Part shown: in pieces, positions 4,961 to 61,200 of the stretch | Layout of the letters: every line of letters begins with the position of its first letter | Position numbering within the stretch: the stretch's first letter is position 1 | NCBI GenBank assembly: GCA_029339195.1 | Contig: JAPTJF010000332.1 | Coordinates: 1 to 64,000, forward strand | Direction: 5' to 3' | From: Micractinium sp. NFX-FRZ | Taxonomy: Eukaryota; Chlorophyta; Trebouxiophyceae; Chlorellales; Chlorellaceae | DNA: 64,000 nt | The notes under the pieces: model-generated | The model's input: the letters and a program-made list of their open reading frames with translations, nothing else | Databases searched by the model: none | Told to the model about the DNA's origin: nothing | Translations under genes and position numbers: made by a program

Positions 4961-7900
4961 TCAGTAGCCAAGCTTGTCATTCAGCGTGGTCCTGCCGTCC
5001 CCCTTTTGCCCCCCGGGCGGCTGCCACTCCTCGGCGCCCGCCCCCGCCACGCCCTGCTGCCGCTGCGCCTGCCGCTGGGCCTCCCACTCTAGCCGCTGCC
5101 GCTCCTGCTCTGCCTCGTCATCTTCTTCAGCCACAGCAGCGCCCTGCCGAGCCCGAGAGAGGAGCGCCAGGTCAGCCATAACTTGTGCTGCCGCATCTGG
5201 CTTGCCGCCGCCACCGCCGCCGGCACCGCCGCCGCCGCTGGCAGCAGCCCCCGTGCCGCCGCCCTCGCGCCCCTTGTGCTCTGCCAGTGCTGCAGCAATC
5301 ATCTTGCGCCGCCGCTCAAAGTTGCTTTCCTCAGCAGGCGCCGCTTGCGCCGCCGGTGCCGCCGGCGCTGCCTGCCCGGCGCCGCCAGCGGGGCCCGCCG
5401 CTACTCCAGCCGTTGCCTGCGGGCGCTGCCGCAGCTGCAGCCCGCCCGCCTGCTCCCCGTCTGCCTCCAGCTTGTGCACACTAGCTGCCGCCTGGGCTGC
5501 TATCGCCGCATTGGCGGCCTGGGTGGCTGCCGAGCCACGCTGCTGCTGCTGCTGCTGCTGCTGCTGCCCCCCGGCCCGCCCTCCCTCCTCCTCATCCTCT
5601 TCAGGCACGAATGCCCGCTCCTCCCGCTGCCGCTGCTCCTCCCGCTGCCGCCGCTGCTTCTCCTCCGCCTCCCGCCGCGCCTTCTCCAGCTGCATCTGCT
5701 TCTTGGCGCGCTCAGCAGCAGCAGCTACCGCTTTGGAGCCGGATTTGTAGTAGCTGCAGGGCACCCCAGGGAGGAGGGGCGGGGGTACAGAGGGAGGGCA
5801 AGGGTGGGCCGCCAGGTGGGCACAGGGGCAGGCAGGCAAGGCGCCGAGGCAGGCGTCACCCGCACACCCAGGGCATCCCTGCCAGAGACCACACTCCCCT
5901 GTGGTGGCGCCTGCCAGCACGAGAGCGCAGGCATGGCCGGCGTGTGTCGCTCCCTACCCAGCATGCACAGCAGCACACCAGCATGCACGGCAGGCACTGC
6001 CAGCTGGTCCACCGTGCAGGGCAGGCACGCTCCTCCTGCTCTAACCCGTCGGGGTCAGCCAGACTTTTGAGCACCCGCTCTGAACGTGCCAGCTGTGCTG
6101 TTCACCTCCTCTTCACACACACACACACACAGTGTGCTCACCCGTCGGGGTCTGCGATTTTGAGCAGCCGCTCGGTGCGTGCCAGCTGGGCATCCACCTC
6201 AGCCAGTTCTTTCTTCACAGCCGCCACCTTGTCACTCTCCAGCTGCACCGCCACATCTGCGGGCAAGCAGGGAGGCATGTGAGTGGCCCAATCACTTAAG
6301 CTGGCTGCTTTGTCAGCCATGCCACCTTGCCGCTGGCTGACCGCCACACCTGCAGGAACAGGGCAAGACTGGTCAGGAAAAATCGCCTTCGCCAGTCCCT
6401 GCTTTCAAACCCGCCAGCTGGCTTGCTCTCCCTCTGAACAACCAGGCCAGCGGGGCGACAGTGGGGAGGTGGGGGGAAAGGGGTAATGGGAGGAGAGGGG
6501 ACAGTGGAGGGAGGGGTTGCAAGAGGTTTGGATGCAAGCCAGGCGGCAGCAGCAGGCGCCATCCGCCATACACCCGACATGCCCTGCCATGCATGCATAA
6601 TCACGCATCCCTGGCCCCACTCCTCCGCCTACCTGACATGAACGCGTCCAGCGAATCTTCCTGCTCCGCCTGCCCCTTTGCTTGCTGCTGCGCCTGCCCC
6701 CCTGCGCCGCCGCCGCCCGCCGCCGCCACCGCCGCCTCCTCCTTCAGCAGCGCCTCTTGCAGGCGCTGCCGCTCTTCTTGGAGCGCCTCCCGCTTGCCGC
6801 ACAGCGAGGCTGCGTCCTCCACCTGCAAGCCAGATGAGAGGGCAAAAGAGGCGGCAGCAGGTGGGATGTTGGAGGTTTGCGGGCACTGGGGGGCAGCGCA
6901 GCAGGCTGCCGAGCAGAGATGCAGCATTGTCCACCTGCGGACAGGGGGGAGAGAACAGGCGGGAAGGCTGACGAGCTGAGCTGGGCAGGCCTGTGCGTGG
7001 ATAACATGTGTGGGAGGACTTGGTGAGCTGGGCTGGAAGACAGCACATGCACAGCATGGGCCTGCAGTCACAGACCACACAAAGCCACCTGATCAAGCTG
7101 CCACGCTGCGCCCCATCCCCGCCCCCACCCCCGCCCCCACCTCCTGCTTCGCCGCCGCCTTCCCCTTCTTGGCCTCTCCCGCTCCGCCCTTGGCGGGGCC
7201 CCCCTTGGCGGTGCGGTCGTAAAACGTGTCGTCATCGCTGCTGCCTGCACGCCGGGTTGCGGGGGCGGGGTTGCGTTATGTGGGGGGTGGGGGAGGCGCC
7301 AAGGACGGCGGTGCCTGTTTCCCGTCATAGAAACCAACGCAGAAACCGATGCTGCATACCCGCCGTTGTACGCGCGTAGAGCCCCGCGAACCTCCCATGC
7401 CCCCACGCCCGCCGCGCCCTCTCCACGCACTCCACCCACCCCACCCACCGGCATACTCGTCGTCAGAGTCCCGCCGCCGCTTCTTCTTCTTCTTCTTATC
7501 CCCAGCCTTCTCGGCCGCGGCGCGGCGCTGCCCCACAGCATCCCTGCGCACACAGCGGTGCACAGGCAGGGCAGGGAGTTCAGGGGACGTAGCATGGGCT
7601 GACGAGGGAAAGGGCTGGCGCGCATGGCCGCATCAGCACGACCCCCCAACTGCACAAAGCATAAAGCACAGCGCATAAACACCGCATAAAGCACAGCGGC
7701 ATGCGGCCGTCACAGCGATCGTGCACACAGCAGCAGCAACATCAACCAGAACGGCAGAAAGCCCTTGGAGGCGTCCGGACGCGTCCACAGCCGCTAGCCA
7801 CGGTCACCGTGCACACGGCAGCAGCGCAGCAATCACGACGGGCGGGATCCCTTGGAGGCCTCCCCAGGCCAGCCGCTGCCCACCTGATTGAGTCTGCCAG

Positions 7901-9343: not shown

Positions 9344-9375
<32 letters not shown>

Positions 9376-18839: not shown

Positions 18840-21800
18840 ATGGACGTCGACGGGCCGCAGCAGGAGGCGTTCGATCTGGAGGTGGGTGCAGTGCCAGGGG
18901 CTGGCCGGGAGCCTTTTGAATCACGCAGACCCTCCGCCGCCCGCAACTCCAGGCTGCCGCCTTCCTCCCGCCGGCCCGCCCGCCGCCCCTCACGCTTGGC
19001 CGGTCCCCCTGCCCCCTGCAGGGCTACGCGGCCAGCTACAGCGGCCATGCCAAGATTGACCGCCTGCTCTTTGCTGCTGACAAGAGCGTGGGCACGCCTC
19101 TAGAGCTGGAGGCTTTGAAGCTGGCAGCAGATGCGCTGAAGCGCGTGAGTGGGTGGGACCCTGGTTTGTCTGCTCCTGCTCAGGCCTGCGCGCATTCTTG
19201 CCGGATGTCGGGTCTGGTGGGGAGTGTGGGTGTTGGCGGTGAGGCATGCGGGAAGCGTGCACACAATTGGGAGGTGGGGCGCCCCTGGTACGAGGCGCTC
19301 ATTCGGGGCTCAACTGCTCCCGCCCGCCCTGCCATCCCCCGCCGGCCACATCCCCCCACACACACAACGCAGATGGAGAATACACACAAGTGCCTTAAAG
19401 CGATTAGGCGCCCGCTTCCCCTGAATTCACAATCTCACCTGAAGAGAGAGAAAGGAACATGCTCCAGTATGCTGAGATAACCGAGCGCGTCTGCCCGTTT
19501 CCCTGCACCCGCAGACTGAGAACACGCAAAAGTACATAGAGACGATCGATCGCATCGGGGGGCGGGCGGGCGACCAGTATGCGCTGGACAGGTGGGCGTG
19601 CATGGCAAGGCTCATTACCGTGACACAGAATGGACTCCCATACCTGCATCGTGTCGTGTCAGTTGACATGGCATGCTTTGGCCGGGTGGGGCGCCGGCGG
19701 GGTGCTGCCGCTGCTGACGCTGACGCTGAGGCTGCCGCCGAATTTACGGTGCCGCCTGCTCAGCCCCCACTGACCACCGAGCGTTGACTCAAGTGCGGAG
19801 CCGTTGAGCCTGCCCGCTGCCGGCGGTGCAGTCCTATCAGCTGCTTGCCCGCCCACCTGCCCACCTGCCCACCTGCTTCCCTGCCTGCCCTCCAACCTGT
19901 ACTTGCCCCTGCCCCATTCTGCCGACTCACTGGCTCGCTCTGCCCGCTCCCGCCCCTCCTGCCTGCCCACTCTTCTCGCAGGGACTGGGTGGACCGTGTG
20001 GAGCGCATGGCGGCACAGAAGCTGGAGAAGCTGGAGTCGGGTGTGTTCTTTGCCCTGCTGCCCTAACCGCTGTCGCCGCTGCTGGCAGCGTTGTCTGTCG
20101 CCCGCTGCTGCCACACGCCTGCTGTCGCTGCCGCTGCCACCAGTCACCTCTGGCGGGCCTGCCTCGTGCTCCTCTGGCGGGCCTGCATGTTGTCAGTGCC
20201 TCATGCTCTCCTGGGCTGCCCCAAACTTGTGCAAGAGCAACCCATATTCAATCTCTCGCCTCATATTGCTGCCCCCTGTCCCCCACCCCACACCACCACA
20301 CCACCACCATGCACACTCTCTGCCGTCTTCTGTGTGTGGTGCAGAGCTCAACATGTACAAGAGGCATTATCGTGTACAAGAGGCCCTCTATATAACTGAA
20401 ACCCCGGGCCGCCTCCCTCTGCGCATGTGGGTGCAGAGCTGAATGTGTACAAGAGCAACCTGATCAAGGAGAGCATCCGCATGGGGCACAACGAGCTGGG
20501 GGACTTTTTCTACGCGCGCGGGGACCTGCAGGTGGGGATTGAATCCCTGGGACTGGGGGCCCAGTCCCAAGGGGAACTAAAAGAGGGCACAGAAAGAGGG
20601 CACACTTGACAGCTGGGTGACGTCTGTTGTGCCCACGGCTGCCTGCAGGTCTGGAATCAGCAAGTGCATGCTTATGCCCTTGTGTGTGTGCGTATTGCAG
20701 GGGGCGGGGCATCACGCCTGGGCGGGGCAGGGTGGGGCGGGGCGGGTTCCAGGCACGTGCTGATCTGCCCGGCAATGCATGCTTACCCAAGTGACCCCTG
20801 CCCTCCTCACCCCTGGTTTCAGAATGCGTTTAAGCACTACATGCGCACCCGCGACTACTGCTCCACCGGGCGCCACATCATCCACATGTGCCTGCAGGGT
20901 GGGTGGGTGGGTGGGTGGGGGGACGCTGGGAGTGAGCAGCGTCACGCAGGTTTGCCTGCAGGGCAGGGGTGGGTGCTGCACTCGTGCACACATACATGTA
21001 CTGCTGTGGTTCGGTGGTTGCACGACAGCACATGCACGCACCCAATGGAAACTCCCTGCTTCCTGCCCACATCGGCATGCAGTGGTCAAGTGCAGCATCG
21101 AGCTGGGCAACTACATACACCTGTCCAACTACGTACAAAAGGCGGAAGCGGCGCCAGAAGCGCAGGTGGGAGCGGGGGGCGGGTGGCTGCATGGGCGAGC
21201 GTGTTGGCTGGGTGCGCACGTGGGTGTGATAGGGTGGGCAGAGGGCCAGCCTGCTAGTTTTGAACGGCCACAGCTGAAGCGAGGCTCGCCAGCTGGTTGC
21301 TTTTGGCGCCTTGCCTGTCCTTCTGCCGCCCTGCCCATTGTATGTCTCACGCACCCTGCCTGCCCTCCCACCCCCCCAGCCCCTTCCCACTCTTCTCCTC
21401 ACTCCCACCCGCCCTCCGTCCCCCATTCCTGCCTCCCCCTCCCCTGTGCCCACAGCACGACCCCCTGGTGATCAGCAAGCTGGCCTGCGCATCAGGGCTG
21501 TACTGCCTGGAGCAGGGGCGGTACAAGCAGGCAGCGCTGAAGTTCACAGAGGTCCGTACGAGGGGCCAGGCATGTATATGTTTGTCACACAACTGCCCTG
21601 GAAGTGTGTAGGCATCAACAGGTTTAGGCCTCGATTTGGTGACTGTCTGACTTTCGCTGGCACTTCTCCTGCAGGTTTCTGGGGAGCTGGGGGCTTCATT
21701 CAACGACGTGATGGCCCCGCAGGTGCGCCGCCTTAGAAAACGAGGGAGAAGGACGCGAGTAGCTCACCTCTTCAGGCTTTCTGCCGCCTGTCAATATGCC

Positions 21801-28179: not shown

Positions 28180-31100
28180 ATGGACAGTAAAATGAAGGTG
28201 TTAAGAGACAACGCCATACAGGGTGCGGTGGGCTGGTTCGTTGAGCTCAGCACTAGCGCTGCGGCATTTATAGATCGGGGCAGAGCTTAAACTGCTTGCG
28301 GTCACCGCCACCCTCTGCGCCGCCGGCGCCAGCGCCTGCCCCCGCGGCCCCCCATCTGCTGCGCCCGACTGACGCTGAGGGCTATGTCCGAGGCTGCGCC
28401 GCCTTATCACCGGCGGCTTACTGCACCTGCTTCACCACCTCCCACACAGGCGACTATGTGCGCCTCTCGGCTGTGGCGATTTCCATTGTTGACACCCCCA
28501 TCTTCCAGCGCCTGCGCTACCTGAAGCAGCTGGGCATGACAGGTGTGAGGCGAGCTGGGCATGACAGGTGGCTGCCAAGCGTGCCGCTGCCACTCAACAG
28601 ACTGCCGCCTGCGCGCTGCTGTCACAATGCGTTGCAATTCTTCCGCCGCTGAGCGTCGCCCCACAAGCTGCGCGGCTGCTGCGCCCTCTGCTGCGCACCT
28701 GACCGTCCTGTGCGCCCCTTCACCCCTCTTTGCCACCGCCTGCTGGATCTGTCTTGGCACCTGCAGAGTTTGTTTATCCTGGTGAGCTGTGATGCTAGGA
28801 CATGGTGCCAGGGCAGCTCAGTGACAGTGGAAGAGCTTCAGGAAAGCAGAGGACAGCAGCTGGACAGCGGTTGACACCTGGCACAGATTTTGACAGCTGT
28901 CGGCTACCCTGCCAGCGCTCACCCTGCCTGCCGCCCGCCGCCTGCCTGCAACCACCCATTCCCGCCCACACCCCTCTGCATCCGAGGTGCAGGCGCAACA
29001 CACACCCGCTTTGCCCATTCCCTCGGCGTGGCCCACCGTGCGCGCGAGTTTGCGCAGCGGCTCAAGGAGCGGCAGCCGGAGCTGACGCTGAGCGGCAGCG
29101 ACCTGACGGTGCTTGAGGTGGCAGGTGAGCAGGGCAGCGGGGCGCTGCATTAAGCTTAGCATGCCGCTCCTTAGAGAGGGTGCTTGGTTGCTGCTGTCGC
29201 AGGTGCCGTAGAGGGGCGCTGCCTTGTCTCTCTCTCACGGCTTGGCTGTGTAGACACGGCGCCTGGTCGCTGCACTGCTGCACTGTTCCCTGGCTGGCGG
29301 TGGCATGTGTGTGGCAGTCGGAGCGCTCGCGGACCCTCCATCTCCCTGCCGGTATGGCGACTCTTGGCCAGGAAGGCAGCTTGGCCTCCACAGTTGTATG
29401 ATCATTCACCGGCCCAGCTGTCTCGCTGCCTGCCGTCACGGCATGCAGGCCTGTGCCACGATCTGGGCCACGGGCCCTACTCCCACTCCTTTCAAACAGA
29501 GCTGGTGCCCAAGCTGCTGCCACCTGGCGAACAGTGGTGCGCACCTGCTGCCGCCAGGCGCTGCTGGCCGTGTGATAAAACAACAGCGGTTGTTGCCTGT
29601 GTTGTGGTGCCCACTGTGCACCCTGCCCTGCCCTTGCACGCCTTGCATGCTGTGCAGCCAGCGGTGAGGTCCCGCCTGCCAGCTGCCTTATGGCGAGGCC
29701 TCATCACTCTCCTCAATATATCTTCGGTAACATGCTCCCCTTGCCTTGCCATATGTGCACCAGTGCGCAGGCAGCACGCGCACATGTCCCGCCTGCTCTG
29801 CGCCCAAACCTGCTCCGCAACTGGTACTGAGCCCTCCCCCTCTGGTGTGTACCATGCAGGGAGCACGAGCACATGTCCTGCCTGCTCTTCGACCACATCT
29901 GCGCCCACTACCACATTGACCTCACGCCCGATGAGCAGCAGCGCGTCAAGGACTTGATACAGGGCGACCGCGAGGCGGCGCAGGTGAGGTGGCGGGCGGG
30001 ACGGCAGGGGGAAGGAATGGCGTTGGTGGGGTGCGGGTGCGGGGAGAGGCGGGGGCGCTCGAGGGAAAGGCAGCAAAACCTGGGAGGCAGAGGTCCCACC
30101 GGAGGAGACGAGAGGGAGAGATGAAAGCACCGTCCCACCACAGGGACTTGTGCAATGAATCCATGTATGCTGCAGGCCGACTGGTCTGGCCGGGAGTGGC
30201 ACTTTGATGTGGTTGCAAACAAGCGCAACGGTGCGTGGGCCCTGTGAGGGGGACGGGGAGGTGGGTGGAAGGGATGTACCAGGCCATGCGGCAGCTTGTG
30301 ATCGGCCCGCAGCAGCAGGAGGACCGCGGGGGTTCTTTTTGCACTGGTACTATGTGCTTGGCTTGCTTGCGCATTTGCTGTACTGAGCAGAGTGCGGTTT
30401 CATCAATGAAATCACACACACACGCGCACACAAAAACAAAGAACGCTTCCTGCAGGGCTGGACGTGGACAAGCTGGACTACTTGAAGCGGGACAACGCGG
30501 CCTGCGGGGAGCTCACCACCTCGGAGTTCTCCAGCCTGTATGAGAACATGCGGGTGCGTGGGCGGGTGGCGGGCACCCACCCTGGGCTGGGCGGAGGCAC
30601 GCTGTGAGGGAAGGGCCTGCAAAGGCACATAACTAACCATTGCATTGTAGCGGCTTGGTTGCCCAGGTTGATGGATGGGTGGGTGGGCGGGTGGGTGGGC
30701 GCCTATGGAGACAAAGTGGCCCCCCGTCTCCCCTTCCTCCTGACCTCGTCAACAGCAAGGCGTGCATCCATCGAACCCACCGAGTCATCCTGTGCAGGTG
30801 ATTCGACGGCGAGGTGTGCTTGCGCTCACTCACAACCAAACCACCCCAACCCACATACACCCCTGTCCCGTGCAGGTGATCAGCGGCGAGGTGTGCTTCC
30901 GCTCGCTCACAAGCAAAGCACATCACCCCAAACCAACTGTTGCCCTGTGCAGGTGATCAACGGCGAGGTGTGCTTCCGCTCCAGCGTCCGGAGCGCGGTG
31001 CAGGAGGTCTACTCGGCGCGGGCAAAGATGTGAGGGTGGTGCAGCGTGGTGAAGGCAGAGTGTCGAGGCTGGGTGCGGGAGGTGCTGCTTGTGCTGGGCG

Positions 31101-35420: not shown

Positions 35421-40214
<4,794 letters not shown>

Positions 40215-40935: not shown

Positions 40936-43900
40936 ATGACCACCACCGCTGGGCCCGCGCCGGGCCGCACCCTTGGGCAGCACCTGGCCACCCGCCTCAC
41001 GCAGATAGGGGTGACCGAGTTTCACGGAGTTCCGGGAGACTACAATTTGCAGGTATCATGCGAACCGCAAGGGTTTCACCGCCAGGCCGGCTTCCAAGGC
41101 CAGCCGATGTCTGCTCACCGTCGGCAGCAGCGGCGCCCCACTGCTCTGCCCCTCCCCCCGTCAGTTCACTTCTCATCCTCACCTTGTTCTGTTGCCCTCC
41201 GTAGCTGCTGGACGAGCTAGAGAAGGAGAAGGGGCTGCGGGGGGTGTACTGCTGCAGCGAGCTGGGCGCTGGTGAGCTTCCATTCGCACTTTGGAGTCCT
41301 CCGAGGTCGCAGGAGCAGGCCTTGCCGGCAGCCTGAAGCTACAGGGGTCAGACTGTAGCTGAGCAGCCTAGAATCCTCTTTCAGCAGGGAGGAGGAGATG
41401 TATGAAGCTCCTGCCTGCTGGCGCCTCCCTGCGCCTGAGCAGCCCCGTGCCTTCCCTGGCCTGCTCTGCTCCCTGCGCTGCCACGCATGCCGCCCTGCCC
41501 GGGGGGTGCCCCTTCGCCTCCCCCGCTGCCTGCAGGCTATGCCGCCGACGGGTATGCGCGAGCCAAGGGGGTGGGCTGCGTGGTGGTCACGTTTACGGTG
41601 GGAGGCCTGAGCTGCATCAACGCCATAGCAGGTGGGTGTGCGGCCCCGTGCATTTGGAGATGGAAACCGGTGTCGTGGGTGACTGGAGCAGCAGCATCCA
41701 CAGCAGCTGTAGCACATGGCAGCGTGGCACATCGGCAGGCATGTTGGCTGCTCTCTCTCCCCTGATGTGACCTGCCGCCTCCCACCCTTTTTGCACCCCC
41801 CTGCAGGCGCCTATGCTGAGAGCCTGCCTGTCATCTGCATCTGCGGCGGGCCCAACACCAACGACTTTGCCTCAAACCGCCTCATTCACCACACCCTGGG
41901 TGAGCTGGCACTCACGGACGCTGCCGCTGCCGCCTGCTAAGCGCACGTTCCACGCAGGGTCGTGCAGGGCACAGCAAACCATGGCAGGCGCGAGCATAGT
42001 GATGATACACAGCCCGAGTTGGCAATAACTTTTGGCACCTGTCTGGGCTCATCTGGGCTCTGCTGCATGATGGCTTAGTGCATGCACTCTCCATTCTGTC
42101 CCTCGGCTCCGCTGGCTGCTCTGCCCTGCAAATGCAAGAGGTGTGATTCTATGCTGTGCCTGGGCCGTGCTGCGCTGTGCAGGCAAGAAGTTTGATTTTC
42201 TGCAGGAGGCAAACTGCTTCAAGGAGGTGACGTGTGAGCAGGTGGGGGCGGCAGCGAGCGTGGGGGAGCACACCGTACAGAACAGGGTAATCCTGGGAGG
42301 TAAAGTGTGAGCGGGTGGGGGCGGCTTGGTTAAACAGTGCAAGAGGGCAGGTGCAAGCAAGGATCGGCACGCCAGCCCACCTGCCGAGACGCAGCTTTTC
42401 AATTGCCACGTGCAAAGCACACACTGCCCAGCATGCCAACGTTGGCATGCCGCCCCACCCCTCCCAGCAACCAAGCATCCCTTCACCCCGACAGGGCACT
42501 ACCTGGCTCCTCATTCCCCACCCTAGCCCACCCCTCCCCACCCACCGGCTTGCCAGGTGGTGATCCAGAATCTGGCGGATGCCCACGAGGAGATTGACAG
42601 GGCCATCTCTGCTGCTCTGACCCACAGTAAACCCGTGTACATCAACGTCGCCTGCAACCTGGCAGGTGAGGGCTTCCCTAACACAAATGTGAGTCACAGG
42701 TCGAGTTGCTTTGCCCTGAGTGCGTCAACGTCGTCTGCAACCTGGCGGGTGAGACCTTGTGCAAATTCGGTGGGTCCCTCACAGTGGCAGTGCTGTGGGT
42801 GCCGGTTTGTGAGGCTTTGCCCGTGGTGCGTCAACATTGCTTGAAGCCTGGAGGGGGCGTTATGGTGGAGGCGGCAGGCACATGCATGCGGCTGTACATC
42901 CCTGGCTCTGCCTCCAGGCAGAAGCAGTGGGCAGATTGCAGGGCAGGGCCTGGCTGAAATTCGCACAAGATCGGCCCAGGACCTGGTGCAGCACCCGCCT
43001 CCACCCCTCCCTTGGCAATCACCCCTCCACATGGCCACCCCCCATGCCTGCGTGCAGGCCTGCACCACCCCACCTTTGACTCCAGCCCCATCCCCTACTC
43101 CCTCACCCCCAAGCAGTCCAACCCGGCCAGGCGAGGCAGGGGGCAGGTTGGGTGCAGCCAGGGGCGTTTCCTGGGATACTTGCCCCGTGCGGTACAGCCG
43201 CTGCCAGCACTACTGCCGGGCGCAGCTCTACCCTGGGTCTGAGCCAGCTGCACCTGCTGTCGTGTGACGTGTGCTCTAAGCAGCCCGCCGCGGCCCCGGC
43301 CCCGGCCCCTGCACCTGCCCCCCCCTCCTGTCTTCTGGAAGCTCTTTTTAGCTGCACCCCAGAAGTTTCAGTGGAGCGTCAACCATGTGTTCTGTGTGAC
43401 TGATTTGTGAGCGCCCCCAACCCTCCCTGGCCATCCCTGCTGCAGCCTGGAGGCGGCGGTTGAGGCTGCTGCCCGCTTCCTGGAGGGCAAGCAGAAGCCG
43501 GTGGCCGTGGCGGGCTCCCTGCTGCGCATGTGAGTCCCCCAAGCCAAGGGGGCTGTGCGATGCGACCGTGCCTTTTCACAGAGCACGTGCGTGCTCTGCC
43601 ACCCCAAGCACACACACACCGCCGCATTTTCCCGCTCCCATCATTGCTTCCTTTCAGAGCGCGCATGCCTGTGCATGTTGCAACCCAGTCTTGCGCAACG
43701 CATGTTTTCCCCGCTCTTATCATTGCTTTGGTTGCCACCGGAGGCTCTGCTCGTCGTGCTGCATGCCTGCCCCTGGGTCACTCTCCCTTTTGGTGTCCTC
43801 CCCCTGCAGTGCCAAGGCCCGCAGTCAGTTCATGGAGTTTGTGGAGGCCAGCGGGTACCCCTTTGCCTGCATGGCGGGTGAGTGGGCAAGGTTCCACGGG

Positions 43901-46900
43901 TTGCAGCTGCAGTTGCATACCGGAGAACTGCTGCCGCAAACCCGATGGCTGCCCTGCCACCTGAACTCTGCATGATCTGGAATGCTGCATGTAGCAACAG
44001 CAGGGGCTCACCCCCTGCTGTCCCCTACTTACCCCTCCTTCCCCTGCTGCTTACCCCCGCAGCCGCCAAGGGGCTAGTGCCCGAGAGCAGCGAGCAGTTC
44101 ATGGGCACATACTGGGGTGAGTGGCCGCCAGCAGGTGCCAGCATCCATGGCTCTGTGCACCGCTTGGCGCGCTGGCCTGCTCTTGTGGCATCTAGCTGGC
44201 CCGCCAGTTGCTGGCCTGCCTGCCTGCTCCCACTACCTGCCCGCTTGCCTACCTGCCTTCCTGGTGCCCTTGTATCGCCCCCACCGATGCCATCTCACAT
44301 TCCCGCTCACCCCTCTGCCCCGCCTGCCAATCCCGCCTGCCCCGCCTGCCTGCACTGCACGCAGGCCAGATCAGCGACGCCTGCGTGTCCGAGGTTGTCG
44401 AGTCAGCAGACGCCTACCTCTTTGCCGGTGAGTGGCACAGCCTGCCATGGTGCCAGCATTGCTACACTAAGTGTGTGAGGCGGGAGCCTGGGCAGGCAGT
44501 TGGGGAGGTGGCAGCTGCACACCTGTCCCAAAGGGCAGGCTAGAGTACTGAGGGGGTTTGCTGCTGCTGCTGTTGTGCCTCCAGCCTACTGGGGGGGCTC
44601 GCCTCCATTGCAGCCAGCGGCAGCTTGCGGGCCGCCAGGAGCACCCCTTTGCGAGCAGTTTCAGTGCAGCTGTAGACACAGCGCACAATTCCTGGCGCGC
44701 GAGCAGCTTGCGGCTGCCTGGGCCGTCGCGCCTGCCGTGCCCAAGCCCCTCCCTGCTGACCACTTGTACTGTAAACATTGCAGTCTGGTTGCCGAAACGT
44801 TGTAGTGCTGACAAGTAGAAAGTGTTAGTGCTTGAGTGCAGGCCCCCAGTTCAACGACTATGCCAGCGTGGGCTACACAACCGCCATCTCAGGTGCGGGA
44901 GAGGGCGCGGCTCACACTATGCCTGCCCAGCTCACAACAGCCTGGCAAGCTGCGGAGCAAAGCAGTGCATGGGCCAAATGTGCCCCATCTCGGGTAGGGA
45001 GCTCGTTGAGGTGTGCTCACAGTGGGCCAGTGTGATGTGGCTTCCACGTAAGGGTTGTGTGTGTGGCTGACCTGGCATGCTGACATGGCGGGGCTCTGTC
45101 CGGCTGTGCCTCCGACATGTGTTCATTCCCCTTCATCACCCGCCCCCCTTGGTTGTTCAGAGTCCAAGATGATTCGCCTGGATCCCTACCGGGTCACTAT
45201 CGCCGGCGGCAAGGGCGGACAGGCAAGCAGCAGCCGGTGCCAGCCAGCCAGCTAGTCAGCCTCCCTGGCTTGCCGCTGGTAGCTTGCGGGTTGTCTGCAC
45301 TGGCCTCAACCTGAACGCTCTTACCCAGCCGCCTTGGCTGCTGGCTACCATGCTACCTGTTGCGCTGTGCCCAGATGTGCTTGCCTCCCCTTGTGTCCAA
45401 CCGTCGCTGCTTTACCAAGCTGTCCTGTGCTCCCTTTGGATGGGAGGCATTGCTGGGGCCCGGTGTCAGCTCCACAACCTGCCCCACCACACCTGGCATA
45501 CAATACACACCCACACCACCCTTGCCCGGCCCCTCTCTGGTGTTTGGCTGCGTGCGTATGGACGGCTTTCCACCCATTAAATTCGCAGCAATGCTACACC
45601 TTCAACCCCGCAATGCCACACCTGCCCCGCCACGCCCTCAGGTGTTTGGTTGCGTGCGCATGGACGACTTCCTATCCGCCCTGGCGGCCCGCGTGCACCG
45701 CAACTCCACCAGCCTCGACATCTTCCGCCGCCTGTGGGCGCCCCCACCCGAGGTGCCCGTCTCCCTGGCGGGCTCGCCCCTGCAGACCAAGGTTGGTGCG
45801 GGGACGGGGACAGGGAGCAGCCCTGGGAGGAGGCAGGGGGAGATGGGTGCATTGCCTGACTGCTGTGCGCGTGCTCAGTGGGTTGAGGTCACCAAACAAC
45901 TCAATCAATCAATCAATCAATCAGCTGCTCTTGTCACTGCCTCTGCCCTCTGCATGCATGCGTGCCCCCATCCTGCATTGTGGTGTACTGTCTGCTTCTG
46001 CCCTGGACTTCTGCCATGCCAGGGATGACCGGCCTCTGCCTGAGCCTCCCTTACTGCCCTTCCCTGCCACCCGCCCTCCATCTGCCCTCCTGTGGTTCCC
46101 CCTCAGCTCCTGTTTAAGCACATCCAGTCCCTGCTATGCTGCCCGACTGCTTGCTGGTTGCTTGCGTATGGGGCTGACGCCACTGTTAAGCTACTCTCCC
46201 CCCTCACAGCTCCTGTTCAAGCACATCCAGTCCCTGCTGGAGCCCTCCACCCTGCTGCTGGCGGAGACGGGGGACTCGTGAGCTGGGAGGGAGCTGAGTG
46301 CACTTGCTGTGGACCGGCGCATGGGTGTGGCAATGCCCTGCTCTGTGCACAAGACAGTGCCGTGCCACCCTGCGATGAACAAGCGCCGACCCGGGGCTCA
46401 CCGCCAAGGAGGCACTTCACCTGGGTGGACTGGCACCCACCAATCCACCCACCTTGGGCCCCCCTCCATTCTCCCCTGCGTGCCTGCACCACAGCATCTT
46501 CAACGCACAGAAGCTGCGGCTGCCCGACGGCTGCCAGTACGAGTGGAGCCAGCAGTATGGGAGGTGAGGCGGCAGGGACGGGGGGGGGCAGCCGGCATCC
46601 CACGCGGGTTGCTGCAAACGTGGGGGGCAGACAGCACCCCAAGCCGCACTGGGGGCTTTTGGAAGCCGAGCAGGCACCTCCCATGTACACTGCTGCCACT
46701 GCCTGCTGCCATCGTCACGTGAGTGCTGCTGCTGCCCCATGCCTGTGACATGCATGTGCAACAATAGTGCTCAAAGACTGCTTCTCACATTCTTACATCA
46801 TGTGGCATATGCTGTTCAACCACTACCCGACTGCATCTCTCCCACCCCTCTATTGTGTGCTGCCTTCCCGCAGCATCGGCTGGAGCGTGGGTGCCACACT

Positions 46901-48816
46901 GGGGCTGTCGGTTGCTGGGGAGCAGGAGGGGCGGCGGGTGCTGGCCTGCATCGGCGACGGCAGCTTCCAGATGACTTCCCAGGTGGGACAGCGGGTGCCG
47001 GGTGACTAGTGAAGGACGGGATCTAAAGCATGCCTGACGTGGGGTGGCTGCCTCGACATACACCCCAAACCCTCCTCCCCATTGCACCCCACATCCACCT
47101 TGGATGGTGACCAGGTGACCTGGAACCGCATCTCACCTCACTTTTACCGACTTTAAAAGAGGTGTCCAAAATGCCGCTCATGCTGTGCTGTCCGCCATGC
47201 TGCGTGCTGCACATGCTGTGCTGTCCATGCTGCAGGAGGTGTCCACCATGCTGCGCTACCAGGCCTGCCCCGTCATCTTCCTCATCAACAATGGAGGGTG
47301 AGGTCAGCGTGGGGCGGGTGGGGTGGGGTGGCCAGCGCGGTAGAGCGGCTGAGCGAAGACGTCGAGAGCTAGATGCGGCTGCGACCCCCGGCTAAGCATC
47401 CAGCGCATGCTGCCAATGCCACTCTCCTTGAAGATTGACAGCCCTGCTTTCTGCTTTCAACCCCGCTTTGTTTGCCCCGCTCCTCCGTGCCCCCTGCAGC
47501 TACACAATCGAGGTTGGGGGGCAGGGGTTGTGGCGGCTTTGCAGCCATGCTGCGGGGGCCGCCAGGGTTGACCGCCGCCACTGTGCATGCACGCTGTGTC
47601 CGCACAGCGCATGGCGCCGGTACCCTTGCTGCCTTGCAGCCCCGCCCTTTGTGCCACCTCCCGTCCCCTTGGGTGGCGCTTGCCAAGGGGTGCCTTGTGA
47701 GCTAAGAATGTCCACCTGGCCTGCCATTGAATGCCCTGGGCAGGTGGAAATCCATGACGGCCCCTACAACAAGATTGCCAACTGGGACTATGTGGGCCTG
47801 GTGCGATCCATGGTGCACAACGCCGCCACCGAAGCGGGCAGCAGCGGCAGCGGGCTGTTTGCCACACGGGTGCGCCTGGCGGGGGGCCCTGGGTGGGAGG
47901 GATGGCTGAAGCTGCTGCTGCTGCCAGGTTATGTTTCCTCAAAGGCTGGCCAGGGCTGCCCCCTGCTGCGTGCAGCATTTTCACACCACTACCACCACCC
48001 GCGCCCTCCCTTCTCCCCCCGCACTTCCCACCCTCCCTTTTCACATTGCTATCCCCCTCCATCCCTGGAAGGTGCCGACCGAGAATGAGCTGCTGGATGT
48101 GCGTCCTCGTCCTTGCCCCCATCCCCCCCTTCTCAGCCTCTCCTCATCGTCCCCTGCCCCCTTTTTCTGGCAGGTGCTCACCGAGGAGGAGCTGCTGGAT
48201 ATCCGATGCTCGTCCTGGCCCCCACCCCTACCCCCCCTCCCTTCTCAGCCTCCCCTGTCACCTCCCTATTCCCTCCCAATCCCCGGCAGGTGCGCACCGA
48301 GGAGGAGCTGGTGGATGCGCTGCAGAGCGTGAGGGGGGAGCCGGTGGACAAGCTGTGCTTCATCGAGTGCATCGTGCACAGGTGGGGGCGCCACCACAGG
48401 GATGTGCTGGCAGCTGAAGTGGAGGTGCCTGCGCATGCCTCGCTCTCCCTCCCCTCTCTGCCCTCTCTCTCTCCAGAAAACTCCAAATTTTGGTTCTCCG
48501 AAATGCCGGGACGACACATCTGCGACATGGTTTTGTGTTGCTGCCACGCTGTAAAATGAATGAATGATGTGGTGGTCAGGGGTGGGGGCGAGGGGGGAGC
48601 CGGCGGGGCCGTCAGCGCTGATGCTTGCCCCGATGTGCTTTCGCTTGCGCGGGTGCGGTTGTGACCGCCTCGTACCTCCGTTGGCCATGCCCTGTTGCGC
48701 ACCAAAAGCTGAGCCACCGGCTTCCCTGCTGCAGGGACGACTGCTCCAAGGAGCTGCTGGAGTGGGGCGCCCGGGTGTCGGCAGCCAACAGCCGCCCCCC
48801 AGCGGCGGCGCCCTGA
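40936..48816 (+). CDS. PDC: Pyruvate decarboxylase (thiamine diphosphate enzyme)
   Basis: Twenty-two exons close in frame to 588 residues: 40936-41052, 41205-41271, 41536-41631, 41807-41899, 42183-42241, 42557-42665, 43058-43130, 43446-43529, 43810-43877, 44063-44116, 44365-44427, 44842-44892, 45161-45222, 45642-45791, 46210-46277, 46495-46563, 46874-46982, 47236-47297, 47500-47512, 47744-47869, 48290-48381, 48735-48816. Blocks include [38 protein letters not shown] with the catalytic Glu, [19 protein letters not shown], and [10 protein letters not shown] plus INNGGYTIE as the cofactor motif. [14 protein letters not shown] follows. It converts pyruvate to acetaldehyde for ethanol fermentation. 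No targeting peptide is obvious, which suggests a cytosolic enzyme. Two introns start with GC. Confidence 0.97.
42297..42322 (+). repeat. Copy of PDC exon 5 tail with its donor
   Basis: GAGGTAAAGTGTGAGCGG/GTGGGGGCGGC repeats GAGGTGACGTGTGAGCAG/GTGGGGGCGGC at 42241, 73 bp downstream. The intron side is copied too. Confidence 0.8.
42718..42852 (+). repeat. Two copies of PDC exon 6 tail
   Basis: GCGTCAACGTCGTCTGCAAC then CTGGCGG/GTGAGAC ends at 42748, and a weaker GCGTCAACATTGCTTGAAGC ends near 42850. Both resemble ACATCAACGTCGCCTGCAAC then CTGGCAG/GTGAGG at 42665. Spacings are about 83 and 102 bp. Confidence 0.75.
43131..43445 (+). other. Probable GC-AG intron 7 of PDC
   Basis: The exon [15 protein letters not shown] ends CCGGCCAG/GCGAGG. 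The next exon begins CTGGAGGCG after TGCAG. Only this GC donor gives the correct phase (S-LEAAVEAA). Confidence 0.65.
45223..45641 (+). other. Probable GC-AG intron 13 of PDC
   Basis: The exon [11 protein letters not shown] ends GGACAG/GCAAGC, a good donor consensus except for the C. It joins [11 protein letters not shown] in phase 0. No usable GT lies nearby. Confidence 0.65.
45540..45582 (+). repeat. Copy of PDC exon 14 head
   Basis: GTGTTTGGCTGCGTGCGTAT then GGACGGCTTTCC repeats GTGTTTGGTTGCGTGCGCAT then GGACGACTTCC at 45642. The copy is 102 bp upstream and its acceptor AG is lost (CTG precedes it). Confidence 0.85.
45899..45922. repeat. (TCAA)n microsatellite in PDC intron 14
   Basis: Five to six copies of the tetranucleotide TCAA lie after the exon 14 donor. 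Confidence 0.8.
46101..46142 (+). repeat. Copy of PDC exon 15 head with its acceptor
   Basis: CCTCAG/CTCCTGTTTAAGCACATC and CAGTCCCTGCT repeats CACAG/CTCCTGTTCAAGCACATC and CAGTCCCTGCT at 46210. The copy is exactly 103 bp upstream and its acceptor is intact. Confidence 0.88.
47157..47205 (+). repeat. Degenerate copy of PDC exon 18 head
   Basis: AAAAG/AGGTGTCCAAAATGCCGCTC resembles GCAG/GAGGTGTCCACCATGCTGCGC at 47236, about 77 bp upstream. Confidence 0.55.
47500..47512 (+). other. 13-nt microexon of PDC
   Basis: CTGCAG/C TAC ACA ATC GAG/GTTGGG supplies YTIE inside the conserved [17 protein letters not shown] block that completes the thiamine diphosphate motif. Phases of both neighbours demand it. 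Confidence 0.88.
48066..48215 (+). repeat. Two copies of PDC exon 21 head
   Basis: GGAAG/GTGCCGACCGAGAATGAGC at 48072 and GGCAG/GTGCTCACCGAGGAGGAGC at 48174 precede the true GGCAG/GTGCGCACCGAGGAGGAGC at 48290. Spacings are 102 and 116 bp. Both keep an AG. Confidence 0.88.
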
Positions 48817-49205
48817 GCACTCCTGCCCGGCGGCCGAGGCGGGGGCCGAGAGTAGCACTGCCGCCGCCCCGTCGCCAGTCCTGCATGCGCAGAGGCTGGG
48901 CTGTGGCTGGAAGCTGTCGCCTGACAAAGATCTGATTGTGCAGGAGCTTCAAAACCTCCCAATCCCCCCCCAACACTGAGTCTGCTGGGTTCTCTTTTCA
49001 AGGGGTTTGTCAATCGTCACATGAATGTCGGCAAGTGTTTGTCATGTCAATCCGCGGTTCAGTATCAGGGTGCTCTCATTGGGTTGATTCACGAATGGGC
49101 AGTATCGGCCAGACGCCATGGCGCCTGGGCATGCCTGGGAAGAGCGCAGACTGGCAGCAGCGCCGGCCGCAACGCCGCCCCGGCAGGGGGCCCCCAACAC
49201 TACTG
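48817..49205. other. Convergent intergenic region between PDC and the cation exchanger
   Basis: This tail-to-tail spacer of 389 bp must hold both 3' ends. I noticed no TGTAA in either orientation, so the poly(A) signals are unassigned. Confidence 0.45.
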
Positions 49206-52200
49206 CTACAACTGCTCAGCTAGCAGGAAGAGGACCTGGGAGACGGCATAGATGGAGAGCACCGCCACTGCTGCCTTGCGGGACAGCCGCCAGCGGAAGA
49301 GCAGCGGCATGGAGACGAGGAGGAAGGCGAGGACGAGGAGGGTGAAGAGCACGAGCAGGCCGACGCCGGGGGAGAGCTGGTACGGCAGCGGGCCGTGGCG
49401 GCGCAGGGCGGCGTACAGCGTAGGGCCCGCCCACGCTATGAGCACGTTGAAGATGGGGCCGCCAAACACGGCGGCAATCGCCATGGTGGCCTGCACAGGG
49501 GGGCGGGCGGTTGCCGGGGGTAAGGGGCCGGGGGCAGGCAGGTGAAGAGTGAGCACGGCCGGGGGCCAGTGCAAGCTCCGCCCCATCTCAGCCAGCCCAG
49601 CCAGCCCACCGCAACCTCGTCAAGTTCAAAAGGTTCAACAGCACAGCTCACCTGCCCCGACCGCGCCAGGCTCATGGTTGCCACCAGCTCCGGCACCGCC
49701 TCCCCCCAGGCCAGCACAGTGGCCCCCAGCACATCCTGGCTCACGTCCACTATGCGGCCAATGGCCTGCAGGGACCAGCGAGCAGCATGTCGCTGAGAGC
49801 TGAATGCGTGGCATATCGCCCAGCACACCCTGGGGCGCACCCACAATGCGGCACCTGGCCTGCACCTCAGCAGCCATGGGAACGAAGCCAACAGAGAGTG
49901 CATCCGCAGTGGCAAACGTAAGCGGCAGTGTGGGAGTCCTCATGTGCACGATGCGGCCGGGGGCCTGTGGGTGCGGCGTGAAAATGAAAGTGCACAGCTT
50001 GGCTCCTGGCTCGCGCCGCATTCGTAGCAAAGACATCTTAGCCTGCCCGCCCGCCAGCCCAGCCCCGCACCTGGAACAGCGACACCAGCTCATCCGCTGC
50101 CACGCTCATCCACAGCATGCACTGCGCCGAGGCCAGCACCGCCAGCAGCACGTTGCGCCGTGGCCGCCGCATGGTGCAGGCCTGCCAGCAGCGGTCTGAC
50201 AGCCTCCCTCCTAGAGAGCTGCCCGGAGGCAGACGTGCACCGCTGCCAAAGGGGCTGCCGGGGACGCCCCGTGCCAGGGGGCTGGCACTCATAGTGGCTA
50301 GCGAGCTGCTGGCGCCGCCATGACTGCTGTTGCCACCATTGCTGGCGTTTGCCGGCGGCACTGCCAGCAGCAGCGCCAGCAGCACGAGCGCCGCCAGCAG
50401 CCAGGTCAGCAGAAAGTAGGGTGTGCTGAGGTGGTGCGGGTAGAGCTCTGTGCTGAGCAGCGTGAAGAGCGGGGCGCACAGCGCGAACAGCAGCGCGTAC
50501 CAAGGGGTGTAGTAGCCTGCAGGCGAGGGAGGCAGGGAAAGGCACAGGGGGCAATCAGGGGACGCAGGCGGAGGTATGGATACCATTGGGGGAGGGCAGG
50601 GGTGGGGAAGCATGCACGGCCCCCACACAGGCATCACAACGCACGACTTCCCCCCAGGCCGCACCGACAGGCAGCACACTGCACCAGCCCCGCCCCACCA
50701 CCTCACCTGCATGCAGCGCCGGCATGGTGGCGTGCAACACCAGCATGAGCGGCGCCATTGCCATGCTCAGCCACAGCCGCGGCCCCGTCTTGCCCTTTGT
50801 GTGCAGCAGCTCCTCCAGCCCCAGGGAGGCAGAGTGCAGCAGCTCCCCCACGCGCCCAGCCGGCCCACTGCCAGTGCGGCGCAGATTCGGGTGCCGGGAC
50901 GCCGCGCCGCGCGGCGAGGCGGCGGGCGCGCCACCCCCTGCTGCCGCTGCTGCTGCCGGCGCGTCGGAGGTTGGCATGCTGCCCACGAGCGCCGCGAGCT
51001 CATTCTCCTGCGCCCCGCCTTCCAGCTGCTGCTGTAGCTGTTGCTGATGTGCCGCTGCATCAAAGAGCTTGCCAGCCGCTGGCGCCGCCGGCCTGCTGCC
51101 GCCGGCGATCAGGAGCTCTGCAGACGAGGCCTGCGAGGCCTTGCGCTGGCCTTGCAGCCCGCCATTCCGGCTGACCAGCTCCACTTGCGCACGGGGTGTG
51201 TGCAGGGTGCCGCCCTCCTGCACCGCCCCCGCCACCACCACGCCGTGCAGCGGCACAGCGCCACCAACGGTAACCAGCTGCTGCTGCTGCTCCCCTTGCA
51301 GCCCTGCCAGCTGGTGCTGCGAGGGGGCCATTGCCAGGTAGGAGTGATGCCGCACCCCTCCCCCCCTGCTGGTCCAGATGCACACTGCCAGGTAGGCGAC
51401 ATAGCCTAGCAGGAGCAGGGCGGCCTCCCAGGCAGTGAAGGTGCCACGCAGCATGAGGCCCAGCAGGGCCAGCGTGCTCAGCATGTAAGCCACGGCGTCG
51501 CGCACAAACGCCCGGCGGTCCTGCAGCTTCGGGGAGGGCGGGCAGGCTGGGCGGGGCGCGATTGAAAGAGTGGAACACATAGGTCTTGGCGGCACGGAAC
51601 AGGGACAGAAACATCGCCATTGACACATGGTGTCTACCGTCCCTGCCTGCTCACCGTGATCTCCTCGCCCGCGCCCCCTGCACTGCCAGCAGCGCCGCCC
51701 TCCCCCTCTGCCGCTGTTGCCACGCTGGCCGCCGGCTTGGCCACCAGCATGACCACAGACAGGATGACGGCCACGATGAAGAGACCCGCCCCCAGGGTGG
51801 CGCCCACAGCCAGCTCCTGATCCACGTTGCCGCCCACCGCCACTGCCGCTATCTGGGTGAAGAGGTCGGGGGCGCCTGCAGCAGGTGCAGCGGGAGTGCC
51901 CACCGGGAGCTGGCCGCATGAGGACAGGCCCACGGGAAGAGGAGGCAAAGCATGCGGCAGCACGGTGGGCAGCATTCAGGCTGACAGAGTTGGTGCAGCG
52001 TGCTGTGTTGGTGGCGCAGACGTGGCGACGGTGCAATGTTGACCGCGCCAGGTGGCGGTGCTGACACACTGGCTCCTCACCCGAGGCAAAGGCAAACAGC
52101 GTGACGCCAGCCACGTCGGGCGCCAGCCGCATCCAGAACGCCAGGTACTGCAGGGTGGCAGCGGGAGCGCAGACGTGCCCGGTGTGCAAGATGGCGGCGG

Positions 52201-53296: not shown

Positions 53297-53304
53297 CTTG
53301 AGAG
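53297..53304. repeat. Left target-site duplication CTTGAGAG
   Basis: The 8-bp sequence is identical to 53913-53920 and immediately flanks the terminal CAGGGCTTA of the element. Confidence 0.9.
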
Positions 53305-53912: not shown

Positions 53913-53920
53913 CTTGAGAG
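53913..53920. repeat. Right target-site duplication CTTGAGAG
   Basis: This is the partner of 53297-53304, identical over 8 bp. Confidence 0.9.
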
Positions 53921-58200: not shown

Positions 58201-61200
58201 GCTGGGCGCCGCCTGCAGCAGCAGGAGCAGGAGCATGAGGGAGGGGGCGACAAGGAGGGGGTGGTCGGGAGGATTCAAGAGGAAGCAAGGGAAGGCAGGC
58301 AGGGCGGGAGGCAGGGGGCGGGCGCGGTGGGCAGCAGGAGGCAACGAGGCGGACAACGGCAGCAGCAGTGTGGCCAGGCTGCGGCGGGAAGAGGCTAGAA
58401 GCCTCTTTGCGGGCAACCATAGGGAGGGGCCAACGGGTGGTCGGCTCCTGCTGGGTTGCACTTGCCTGGTCAGCCCGCTCGCTCTCGTACTGTGCACCAC
58501 ACCCCGGCACGCGTGCTCCCCCCGGACCGCCCCCAAACCCACGCTGCAGCCACAAATGCCCTGGGTTGTCCACCGTTCTGCATGCCCACCTCCTCCCGCA
58601 CAGCCCGCCGCCCGCCCTGCGCCCCCAGTATCCCATCCCCAACAGTATCCCATGCGCGCACCCGTGTAGTATCCCATGCTCTGCGCCGCCTGCATGGCCG
58701 CCACGTGCTCCAGCGACAGCTGCCCCATGCTGGGGCCCTGCTGCTGAGCTGGCATCTGCTGCTGAGGTGGCAGCATGCCAGACGAGGAGCCACCCAGCTC
58801 ATAAGAGCGGGCGGGGGGCAGGGAGCCAGATGAGTCGTAGCTCTGCAGCATCGGGTCACTGCAGACACAGCAGAGGGGGAGGAGGCAGGAAGAGGAGGCA
58901 GGGACACCAGAGGTCAGCGATGACTTAAGCAGGGGAGAGGGCGGGCAGAGAGGACACAGGGGGAGAGCGGCGGTCAGCAGGGGCCGTGGGCCATGCAGGC
59001 GGGGCCGCAGCACCCCCCGAGCAACAAATCCACTCCGGTTGCTGTGCCGCGCAGGGTGGTGCGTAATCGGGTAACGCACAGGTCCCATAACGAGCCCCTC
59101 CCTCCCAGCCTTCCCTCCCCCACCTGAAGCGCCGGTGCTCGCTGTCCGAGGCGCGCGGCGTGGTGAGGTGGGCCTGCAGCTGGTTCAGGGTGCCCGCCGG
59201 CAGCATCTGCTGCAGGATGGACGCCGCCTGCTCCGCGCTGACCTTGTCCTGGGCCAGCAGGCTGGTCACCAGCTCAATCACCTGCTGCTCCTGCGGCACG
59301 GGGAGGCAAAAGGAGGGCACATCGTACACTGTGCTGCATGTGTAAGGCTGTCCTGGGCCAGCAGGTCACTTACATGCTCAGTCACCTGCTGCTCCTGCAC
59401 ACCAAAAGCAATACTCTGTGCCGTGCTGGTTGGTTGGTCAAATGAATTGCTGGCCATGTACAACTCGTGCAGCCAACACGACTGGTGGGCCGTGCGCCGC
59501 GCTCAATCCAGCCATCCACTGACCCCACCGTGCGCCCACCCACCCCCGCCATGCCCTGCACCCCGCGCCCCCTACCTGCGAGCTGAAGCCGGCGCCTGCC
59601 AGCTGCTGCAGCGCGGCACGCACTGAAGAGTCGGCGGCGGGGCTGGATCCCAGGCCTGAGGCGCTCTCATCCGTGGTTGAGGGGCTGGCGGGGCCGCCCA
59701 TGCTGCCACCGCTCAGTTGGGCCTCGCCCAGGCCGCCGCCCTGCTGCGCCATGCGCAGCGCGTCCAGGGAGGAGCGCTGGGGGGAGGGGCCGGGGGAGAG
59801 GGCTGTGAATGCGCTCAGCGGGCTGCCCACAGTGGCGGCCTTGCGCTTGGCCTCGGCGTCGGCGGCGGCCGCGGCGGCGGCGCCCGCCAGGGCCTCGGGG
59901 CTCACAAAGGGCTTGCAGGCTGGCACGCGCAGTTCGTCCAGGCTGCAGGGAGGGAGGATGGGGGGAGCAGGGGTGAGCGGTGAGGCTAAGGGGGTTATGG
60001 GCTGAAGAAGCGCAGGCGGGGGCGCGTGGCTTGTCGAGGCCCAGGGTGGGGGCGCGCGGACGCGAGCGACGGCGCTCGGGCCGGCGCGAATAGCTGCGGC
60101 GGTGGCCCCCCAGCACAGCTCCTCAACTCCTCTTGGCATACGTTGAACTCAGCAGCTGCCGGTTTGCTGCCCTGAAAACGCCCCCGCCCACCCCACCTGT
60201 GCGCGAAGAAGCAGATCTTGCGCTTGCAGTTGCTGCCGTCGTTGCACAGCTGGGTGCGGTAGCGCGTGGGGTGCAGCCAGTACTCAAACACGTTGTGGGC
60301 GTAGGGGCAGTGGTCGCCAAAGGCGCAGCAGCCCTCCTGCGGGGTGGCGGGGCGCGGGGAGGGGGAGCGGCGGCGTGTGCGGCGGTCAGTGCGGCAAGTA
60401 TGCGTACCGCTTGGAGGCCGGCGGGACCGCCGCTACAAGGAGACACACCCCCAGGGATTGGCTTGGTGCTCTGCCCACTGTGCACTCCAAACCAAGGAGC
60501 GCCGCCACATACGGCGGGTGATGAGGGCTTTGCCACAAAACGCGCGCCCCGCTGCCGGCGGTCCCGCCCGGCGCGAGGCGGTATCGCAGATCCTGTGGAA
60601 TGAACCCGCAGAGTCCCGGGCCGGCCTCTCCCCTCACTCACTCGCTTCATGCTGGGGCAGGCGATGCCTGCAGGGATCAGAATGGACAAGGAGGAGTAGG
60701 TGTGGATTGGAAGTCGAGGAAGGACGCCGTACCAAGGTGCGTCGGTTCACCGGGCCGGCGAGCAGCCGCGCGCGCAGCAGGAGCTGGTCAATCAAGCCTC
60801 CCGACAGGCACCTCCCGGCACAAGCAAGGGTGTGTGGAATTAGCGCACCCCCCAGCCGCAGGGTGGTGCGCACAGCGGGTGCTCCTGTCGTTCCTGCAGC
60901 TCACCGGTGTAGTGGTGCGCCCGCGGGTCGCGGCGGCGCGCCTTCTCCTGCGGGTGCGCAAACGGGCACTCTGTCCAGTCGTGCACGAACCGCTTGGAGC
61001 AGGGCAGAACCTGCGCAATGGTGCCAGAAAGAGTTGTGATAAGTGGCGAGGGGGCACGGCTTCCGGGCTGCCAGCCCTGAAGGTGCCAACCCAATCATCG
61101 GAAGCTGCAAGTCAGCACCGCCGCCGCCGGCGGCCACGCCGCCACGAGGGCGATATCGCTGCCAGCAGGCCTCAGCCAGGCTCGGGGGCCGGGGGGGGGC

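Follow-up and report, generated by a model that had tools for sequence, protein, structure and literature searches.

In a potato RdRp gene, a tandem duplication spans an intron-exon boundary and takes in the branch site, the pyrimidine tract, the acceptor and the head of the exon; its two copies differ at ten sites, and both the inner acceptor and a cryptic exonic donor are in use there, which creates a new intron that is backed by RNA reads (PMC4974935). Related proposals are the AGGT tandem genomic duplication model, in which an exonic segment is duplicated to yield a new intron (PMC3443670), and stwintronisation in Lipomyces, where a six-nucleotide (nt) donor element is duplicated, the resulting introns are nested, and repair of a staggered break has been proposed (PMC7138796). 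These systems are summarized here as far as the cited portions of the three papers describe them. In this report we analyze a 64,000-base stretch of the green alga Micractinium sp. NFX-FRZ (hereafter the window), which comprises bases 1 to 64000 of a 70,122-base contig (C332) from a 66-Mb genome in 838 contigs. Its introns carry copies of the heads and tails of adjoining exons, termed shadows below, at a spacing near 100 base pairs (bp). We favor the explanation that tandem duplications straddling splice junctions were kept through a splicing filter, and we assign it a probability of about 0.6. An earlier note on this DNA knew of no description of this regular pattern for the lineage. The pattern as such is not wholly new, given the one published potato gene (PMC4974935, as far as the cited portion goes). 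For green algae, our searches of the open-licence literature brought up no account of junction duplications on a genome-wide scale.

Exon edges are copied into their own introns

The DNA compared consisted of the whole of contig C332 and 180 kb of contig C1 (250 kb together), to which 50 kb of contig C10 and, for a glutamate dehydrogenase (GDH) paralogue, 3.7 kb of contig C315 were later added. Genes were predicted by a hidden Markov model (HMM) gene finder that we built for this analysis, seeded with a hand-written codon table and hand-written splice-site examples, and trained on C332 and C1. It converged on 503 introns with a median length of 254 bases, a median exon of 99 bases, and the consensus sequences CAG/GTGAG for donors and TGCAG/G for acceptors. 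Its known errors are mini-exons at shadows and a missing piece near the N terminus of pyruvate decarboxylase (PDC). Introns longer than 1200 bp were dropped from the intron tests, which used 501 introns of at most 1200 bases, and exon edges shorter than 25 to 30 nt were left out before counting. Low-complexity blocks at 66.4 to 66.6, 93.5 to 93.8, 145.6 to 146.2 and 147.6 to 148.1 kb of C1 and at 67.6 to 67.8 kb of C332 were dropped before self-match pairs were classified.

By aligning each 60-base exon edge with its own intron, with gaps allowed and a score threshold of 34, we detected a direct copy for 53 of the 907 predicted exon edges in C332 and C1 (27/457 heads and 26/450 tails). Length-matched other introns gave rates of 0.00% for heads and 0.02% for tails, and the reverse complement produced one head and one tail match at score 34, versus 27 and 26 in direct orientation. 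Exon interiors were likewise nearly devoid of matches (0/186 for positions +61 to +120 and 1/177 for -120 to -61). These orientation counts, together with a gain in intron length equal to the lag (see below), establish that the repeats are direct and tandem. A slightly lower length limit extended the catalogue to 54 copies.

An ungapped self-match scan over lags of 20 to 399 agrees with this result. It returned 44 pairs in C332 and a further 179 in C1, the latter total taking in low-complexity and coding repeats, compared with shuffled-sequence means of 0 to 0.3 per 20-bp lag bin. Once low-complexity blocks were removed, 56 pairs at lags of 60 to 135 touched a predicted junction, and the remaining pairs at these lags joined intron to intron in 20 cases (ladder members accounting for several), exon to intron in 7 and exon to exon in 3. 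No pair at lags of 60 to 135 was present in the 35 kb called intergenic after the same removal.

Shadow sites in the window

The earlier note had placed copies of exon heads and tails, with the splice site, in the introns of seven genes on both strands. We confirmed the copies at those places, with heads upstream of acceptors and tails downstream of donors, each with its splice motif or beside it, and they fall in seven predicted genes on both strands, as follows.

6046 to 6108, minus strand: exon-tail shadow, donor of intron 5754 to 6141, lag 96
20338 to 20363, plus strand: exon-head shadow, acceptor 20437, lag 92
29767 to 29816, plus strand: exon-head shadow, acceptor 29860, SAMHD1-like gene, lag 89
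30803 to 30981, plus strand: triple ladder, SAMHD1-like gene, unit of 77 bp including the intron part
33839 to 33872, plus strand: exon-tail shadow, donor of intron 33795 to 34043, lag 78
36245 to 36294, plus strand: exon-tail shadow, donor 36194, GDH, lag 91
37073 to 37224, plus strand: two exon-tail shadows, donor 37001, GDH, steps 109 and 101
39075 to 39097, plus strand: exon-tail shadow, donor 38992, GDH, lag 104
39856 to 40026, plus strand: two shadows of the last exon head, acceptor 40087, GDH, lags 226 and 103
42296 to 42325, plus strand: exon-tail shadow, donor 42242, PDC, lag 73
42725 to 42753, plus strand: exon-tail shadow, donor 42666, PDC, lag 83
45535 to 45568, plus strand: exon-head shadow, acceptor 45642, PDC, lag 102, AG lost
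46098 to 46135, plus strand: exon-head shadow, acceptor 46210, PDC, lag 103
48065 to 48205, plus strand: two exon-head shadows, acceptor 48290, PDC, steps 102 and 116
49819 to 49864, minus strand: exon-head shadow, acceptor 49765, exchanger-like gene, lag 94
49939 to 49958, minus strand: weak third copy, acceptor 49765, exchanger-like gene, lag 199
59349 to 59398, minus strand: exon-head shadow, acceptor 59290, CCCH-like gene, lag 104

Among the predicted proteins, those of GDH, PDC and SAMHD1 match solved structures, and the window PDC is nearest, among the named matches, to that of Micractinium tetrahymenae (74%) and then Chlorella vulgaris (68%), which makes an alga of the Chlorellaceae (Trebouxiophyceae) the most likely source. 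The names CSN1-like, exchanger, CCCH and flavodiiron are ones that we presume from reading the predicted proteins. In the SAMHD1-like ladder, the true exon head was taken to be at 30953 because the reading frame runs on from there, and the homologue alignment is ambiguous at this position. The same gene contains two facing 19-bp repeat arrays (TGTGTGCTAACCACGCCCA and its reverse complement) that form an inverted repeat at 32311 to 32421.

Duplicated exon edges extend beyond the window, and over all three contigs 54 of 1079 edges have a visible step. By a permutation test, shadowed introns are concentrated in particular genes (p = 0.0015, or 0.0035 when weighted by intron length). At positions 48828 to 54948 of C1, a flavodiiron-like gene has shadows in 6 of its 12 introns, and an adjoining gene, probably its partner, in 3 of 16.

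Copies have a narrow geometry

Of the 54 copies, 44 are anchored at the junction, with a start or end within three bases of it, and these are divided equally between 22 acceptors and 22 donors. Their median lag is 103.5 bp, with 37 at 78 to 132 bp, one at 38 and six at 148 to 210, in accord with the proposed spacing peak near 100 bp. The individual distances reported earlier for the window were also recovered on re-measurement (73, 77, 78, 83, 89, 91, 92, 94, 96, 101, 102, 103, 103, 104, 104, 109 and 116 bp), and the exchanger-like gene supplied the 105 bp, as the difference between its lags of 94 and 199. Clear triple ladders are present in the SAMHD1-like gene (30803/30880/30957) and in PDC (48065/48167/48283), as had been claimed, but the third copy in the exchanger-like gene is weak (score 25 over 20 nt, against the threshold of 34). 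GDH carries two triple ladders, at 36964/37073/37174 and 39856/39979/40082.

The exon part of the 44 anchored copies, whose extent was measured inside the first 60 nt of exon and shrinks with decay, has a median of 34.5 nt, with 41 copies at 21 to 49 nt and three at 53 to 59. The 37 single steps average 103.7 bp in lag (SD 13.5) and 35.2 nt in exon part (SD 9.2), and their exon part is only weakly related to exon length (r = 0.25). Their intron part ranges from 26 to 108 nt and is at least 43 nt in 35 of the 37. Detection and filtering thus contribute to the narrow spacing, because about 20 nt of exon are required for a copy to be seen and nearly all single steps (35 of 37) include at least these 43 nt of intron. 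In a scan of undetected edges below the threshold, on which we do not build, 29 positions matched across all lag bins; 23 of these fell at 70 to 144 bp, where about 2 are expected.

Shadows lengthen introns by whole units

The 41 shadowed introns have a median length of 381 bp, versus 246 bp for the 450 others. Subtraction of the lag returns the shadowed introns to a median of 250 bp (95% confidence interval 230 to 287; p = 0.87 versus background), whereas subtraction of the exon piece alone leaves them still too long, at 335 bp (p = 0.0002). This return to the ordinary 246 to 250 bp does not support the suggestion that the spacing reflects an ancestral intron length; a minimum intron part added to a capped exon part seems the likelier origin of the narrow spacing. 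When the intron flanks of the two copies were compared with gaps allowed, 16 of 35 pairs were more alike than expected at p < 0.05, and 11 of these 35 pairs at p < 0.01; the other 19 showed no likeness beyond chance. Whole units were therefore duplicated in at least the 16 pairs.

We also paired the window GDH gene exon by exon with its paralogue on C315. At four of the five shadowed junctions compared, the window intron is longer. The difference is close to the step at donor 37001 (460 versus 255 bp, with two steps that sum to 210) and at donor 38992 (246 versus 150 bp, step 104). The fit is looser at donor 36194 (340 versus 215 bp, step 91, with the mini-exon counted as intron) and at acceptor 40087 (433 versus 263 bp, steps that sum to 226). 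Three unshadowed GDH introns differ from those of the paralogue by +34, +26 and -49. The length test, the flank test and the GDH paralogue thus agree with the earlier proposal that tandem duplications across exon-intron borders lengthen introns. A search for paralogues that would allow further length tests on PDC and the CSN1-like gene matched only these genes' own exons.

One GDH intron lies about 43 nt apart in the two genes (window 39320 to 39545 versus C315 31403 to 31570), although exon sizes are largely shared, and it must therefore have been gained, lost or shifted since the gene duplication.

Inner copies decay as noncoding DNA

Shadows drift as noncoding DNA. Copy and exon differ at 207 of 1845 sites (28 gaps), and the differences at codon positions 1, 2 and 3 (10.2, 10.9 and 12.6%) lack a marked codon bias, on which ground we rejected the possibility that shadows are translated. 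As proposed, the ages of copies range from identical to barely visible; for this range of ages alone we used a loose alignment of whole junction regions, which has a control rate of 0.9% at score 52. The splice motifs are kept no better than under neutral decay, with AG present in 14 of 22 acceptor shadows and GT or GC in 17 of 21 donor shadows (GT in 14).

The gene finder calls in-frame mini-exons at four shadows (30876 to 30890, 36255 to 36284, 48072 to 48098 and 59386 to 59394), among which the 30-nt exon placed at the GDH shadow following donor 36194 is probably false. The 9-residue PDC shadow segment that it included is missing from all five aligned relatives, Micractinium and C. vulgaris among them. 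For GDH and PDC, the alignments with the top structure matches are gapped where the shadow segments lie or next to them, and the structure alignment of the SAMHD1-like protein is ambiguous there. Because the proteins of relatives are without the shadow segment, the outer site is probably the true one, at least in PDC, and the duplication apparently leaves the protein unchanged. The idea that shadows act as decoy sites is partly supported, in that their motifs are often kept and the gene finder was fooled by them; with the segment missing from PDC relatives, actual splicing at shadows stays hypothetical. If inner sites are ever used, the mini-exons might give rise to new introns of the potato type.

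Random duplication is not sufficient

We simulated duplications placed evenly over introns and junctions, let them decay, and passed them through the same detection as the real data. Between 53 and 61% of the visible junction copies then carried more than 50 nt of exon, versus 3 of 44 observed, for which the binomial probability at 53% is 8e-11. Random duplication with selection against coding damage alone was therefore rejected. The simulation also yielded about as many visible interior duplications as junction copies, or more.

Interior duplications in the real introns were counted in several ways. Intron windows matched elsewhere in their own intron in 50 of 1740 cases (control 0.09%), many of them low-complexity or ladder members. 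With strict scoring, six windows in introns without a catalogued copy were matched at lags of 75 to 135, three of which were not of low complexity. With looser scoring, 18 of 306 unshadowed introns scored at least 55 (control 0.2%), at various lags. An early contrast between junction and interior under strict scoring proved too strong, as looser scoring and faster intron decay shrank the excess. At lags of 75 to 140, 11 cases were found outside shadowed introns (among 401 introns), of which 6 were interior and 5 abutted a junction; 10 others were already listed as shadowed. In a generous model, with the exon part capped at 50 nt, the intron part at least 46 nt, and introns decaying three times faster than copies, the ratio of edge to interior cases is 1.36; given 37 single-step copies at edges, some 27 would then be predicted in intron interiors.

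A proposed splicing filter on tandem duplications

The explanation we favor would operate as follows. Short tandem duplications, mostly of 78 to 132 bp, would arise in gene regions, with starting points that we infer to be random. Those that straddle a junction would copy roughly 40 to 110 nt of intron with 20 to 50 nt of exon. The outermost splice site would stay in use, so that the inner copy would come to lie in a lengthened intron, leave the protein unchanged, and afterwards drift as noncoding DNA. A duplication with more than about 50 nt of exon would supply the inner site with enough exonic context to rival the true site, and would be purged. At acceptors, an intron part that is too short would remove the branch point and the pyrimidine tract. 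This filter, with the need for a branch point and pyrimidine tract at acceptors, would explain why the exon part is capped and, to a large extent, why the spacing is narrow. Coding constraint on one of its two copies would also keep the exon part recognizable for longer.

Several observations weigh against this explanation. Junction copies exceed interior ones by about 2.5- to 4.5-fold over the generous model. Donor duplications likewise have an intron part of at least 37 nt, for which the branch-point argument offers no explanation. Among the 11 pairs with at least 93% exon identity, five have no recognizable homology between their intron flanks, as at acceptor 40087 (43/43 exon bases). At GDH position 38859, a shadow is present in both paralogues and the window intron is 20 bp shorter (277 versus 297). 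Finally, the edge test repeated on C10 found copies for only 1 of 172 edges, and copy density is therefore uneven. The first three of these points are left unexplained by the splicing filter by itself; exon-to-shadow copying or a junction-directed origin could explain them. At GDH position 38859 and at C315 position 30998, the lags are 190 and 94, respectively (the latter with a score of 33, just below threshold), and each copy resembles its own exon, such that the two exon-head copies are perhaps independent events.

Alternative explanations

A duplication process directed at junctions by transcription or splicing, for example where a paused polymerase or R-loops at splice sites lead to breaks or nicks close by, is the strongest of the alternatives, although we consider it improbable. 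It would fit the excess of junction copies beyond even generous decay, the narrow exon part that is weakly tied to exon length, and the clustering by gene. However, intron homology alone finds similar numbers of interior and junction-abutting cases (the 6 and 5 given above), internal duplications of various lags exist, and no mechanism that reads splice sites in DNA is known. The stronger version, in which such a process keeps writing copies of about 100 bp from exon edges and introns grow stepwise from their own borders, each step leaving a datable shadow, we regard as equally doubtful.

Less probable again is repeated copying of the exon edge into its shadow by gene conversion or template switching, which would renew the exon part and leave the intron part to decay. 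The five near-identical pairs with unrecognizable flanks suggest such a process, as does the last GDH intron, where the shadow nearer to acceptor 40087 is identical over 48 nt and the farther one 73% alike. Conversion, however, should keep purely intronic duplications alike too, a tract of about 40 nt is short, and the mean divergence of copies is still 11%.

Templated insertion, by which the exon edge alone (about 40 nt) is copied into an intron break, is very unlikely. Ungapped similarity on the intron side often stops at the splice motif, above all at donors, and this profile suggested exon-only copying. That candidate was dropped after the length test, in which introns are longer by the whole spacing rather than the exon piece, and the gapped flank test, which found homology in 16 of 35 pairs; moreover, boundaries at the splice site would be coincidental. 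Chance similarity or an assembly artefact is hardly credible: control rates of 0.00 to 0.02% in other introns refute chance, and an artefact is an unlikely source because the copies are about 11% diverged.

Comparison with known systems

If the pattern is general, it would provide a dated and countable record of intron lengthening, and the exon cut-off of about 50 nt would measure the exon context that a splice site needs to compete. Shadows would also supply raw material for new splice sites and introns, which in the cited portions of the papers considered here has so far been documented for single genes.

Introners are dispersed families that account for large numbers of events in the introns of some lineages. 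The shadows share with them the large number of events in introns. Nevertheless, in a search that skips common words, two segments between copies (window 40027 to 40086 and 46136 to 46209) matched themselves alone, and an introner origin was rejected for these two segments.

The comparisons that follow extend as far as the cited portions of the three papers. With the AGGT model, the algal copies share a direct tandem duplication near splice-like sequences. Unlike in that model, the introns pre-exist, given that the GDH paralogue has an intron at all five shadowed junctions compared, and each copy is set some 100 bp into the intron rather than at its opposite edge. As in Lipomyces, a splice element is duplicated inside an intron that already exists, but the algal units are about 100 bp long and include exon sequence. 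The geometry is that of the potato RdRp gene, with a unit that holds the intron end, the splice site and the exon edge (44 of 54 copies anchored and flanks alike in 16 of 35 pairs). In contrast to potato, the inner copy in the alga is seemingly skipped, the duplications involve many donors as well as many acceptors, and ladders of copies occur.

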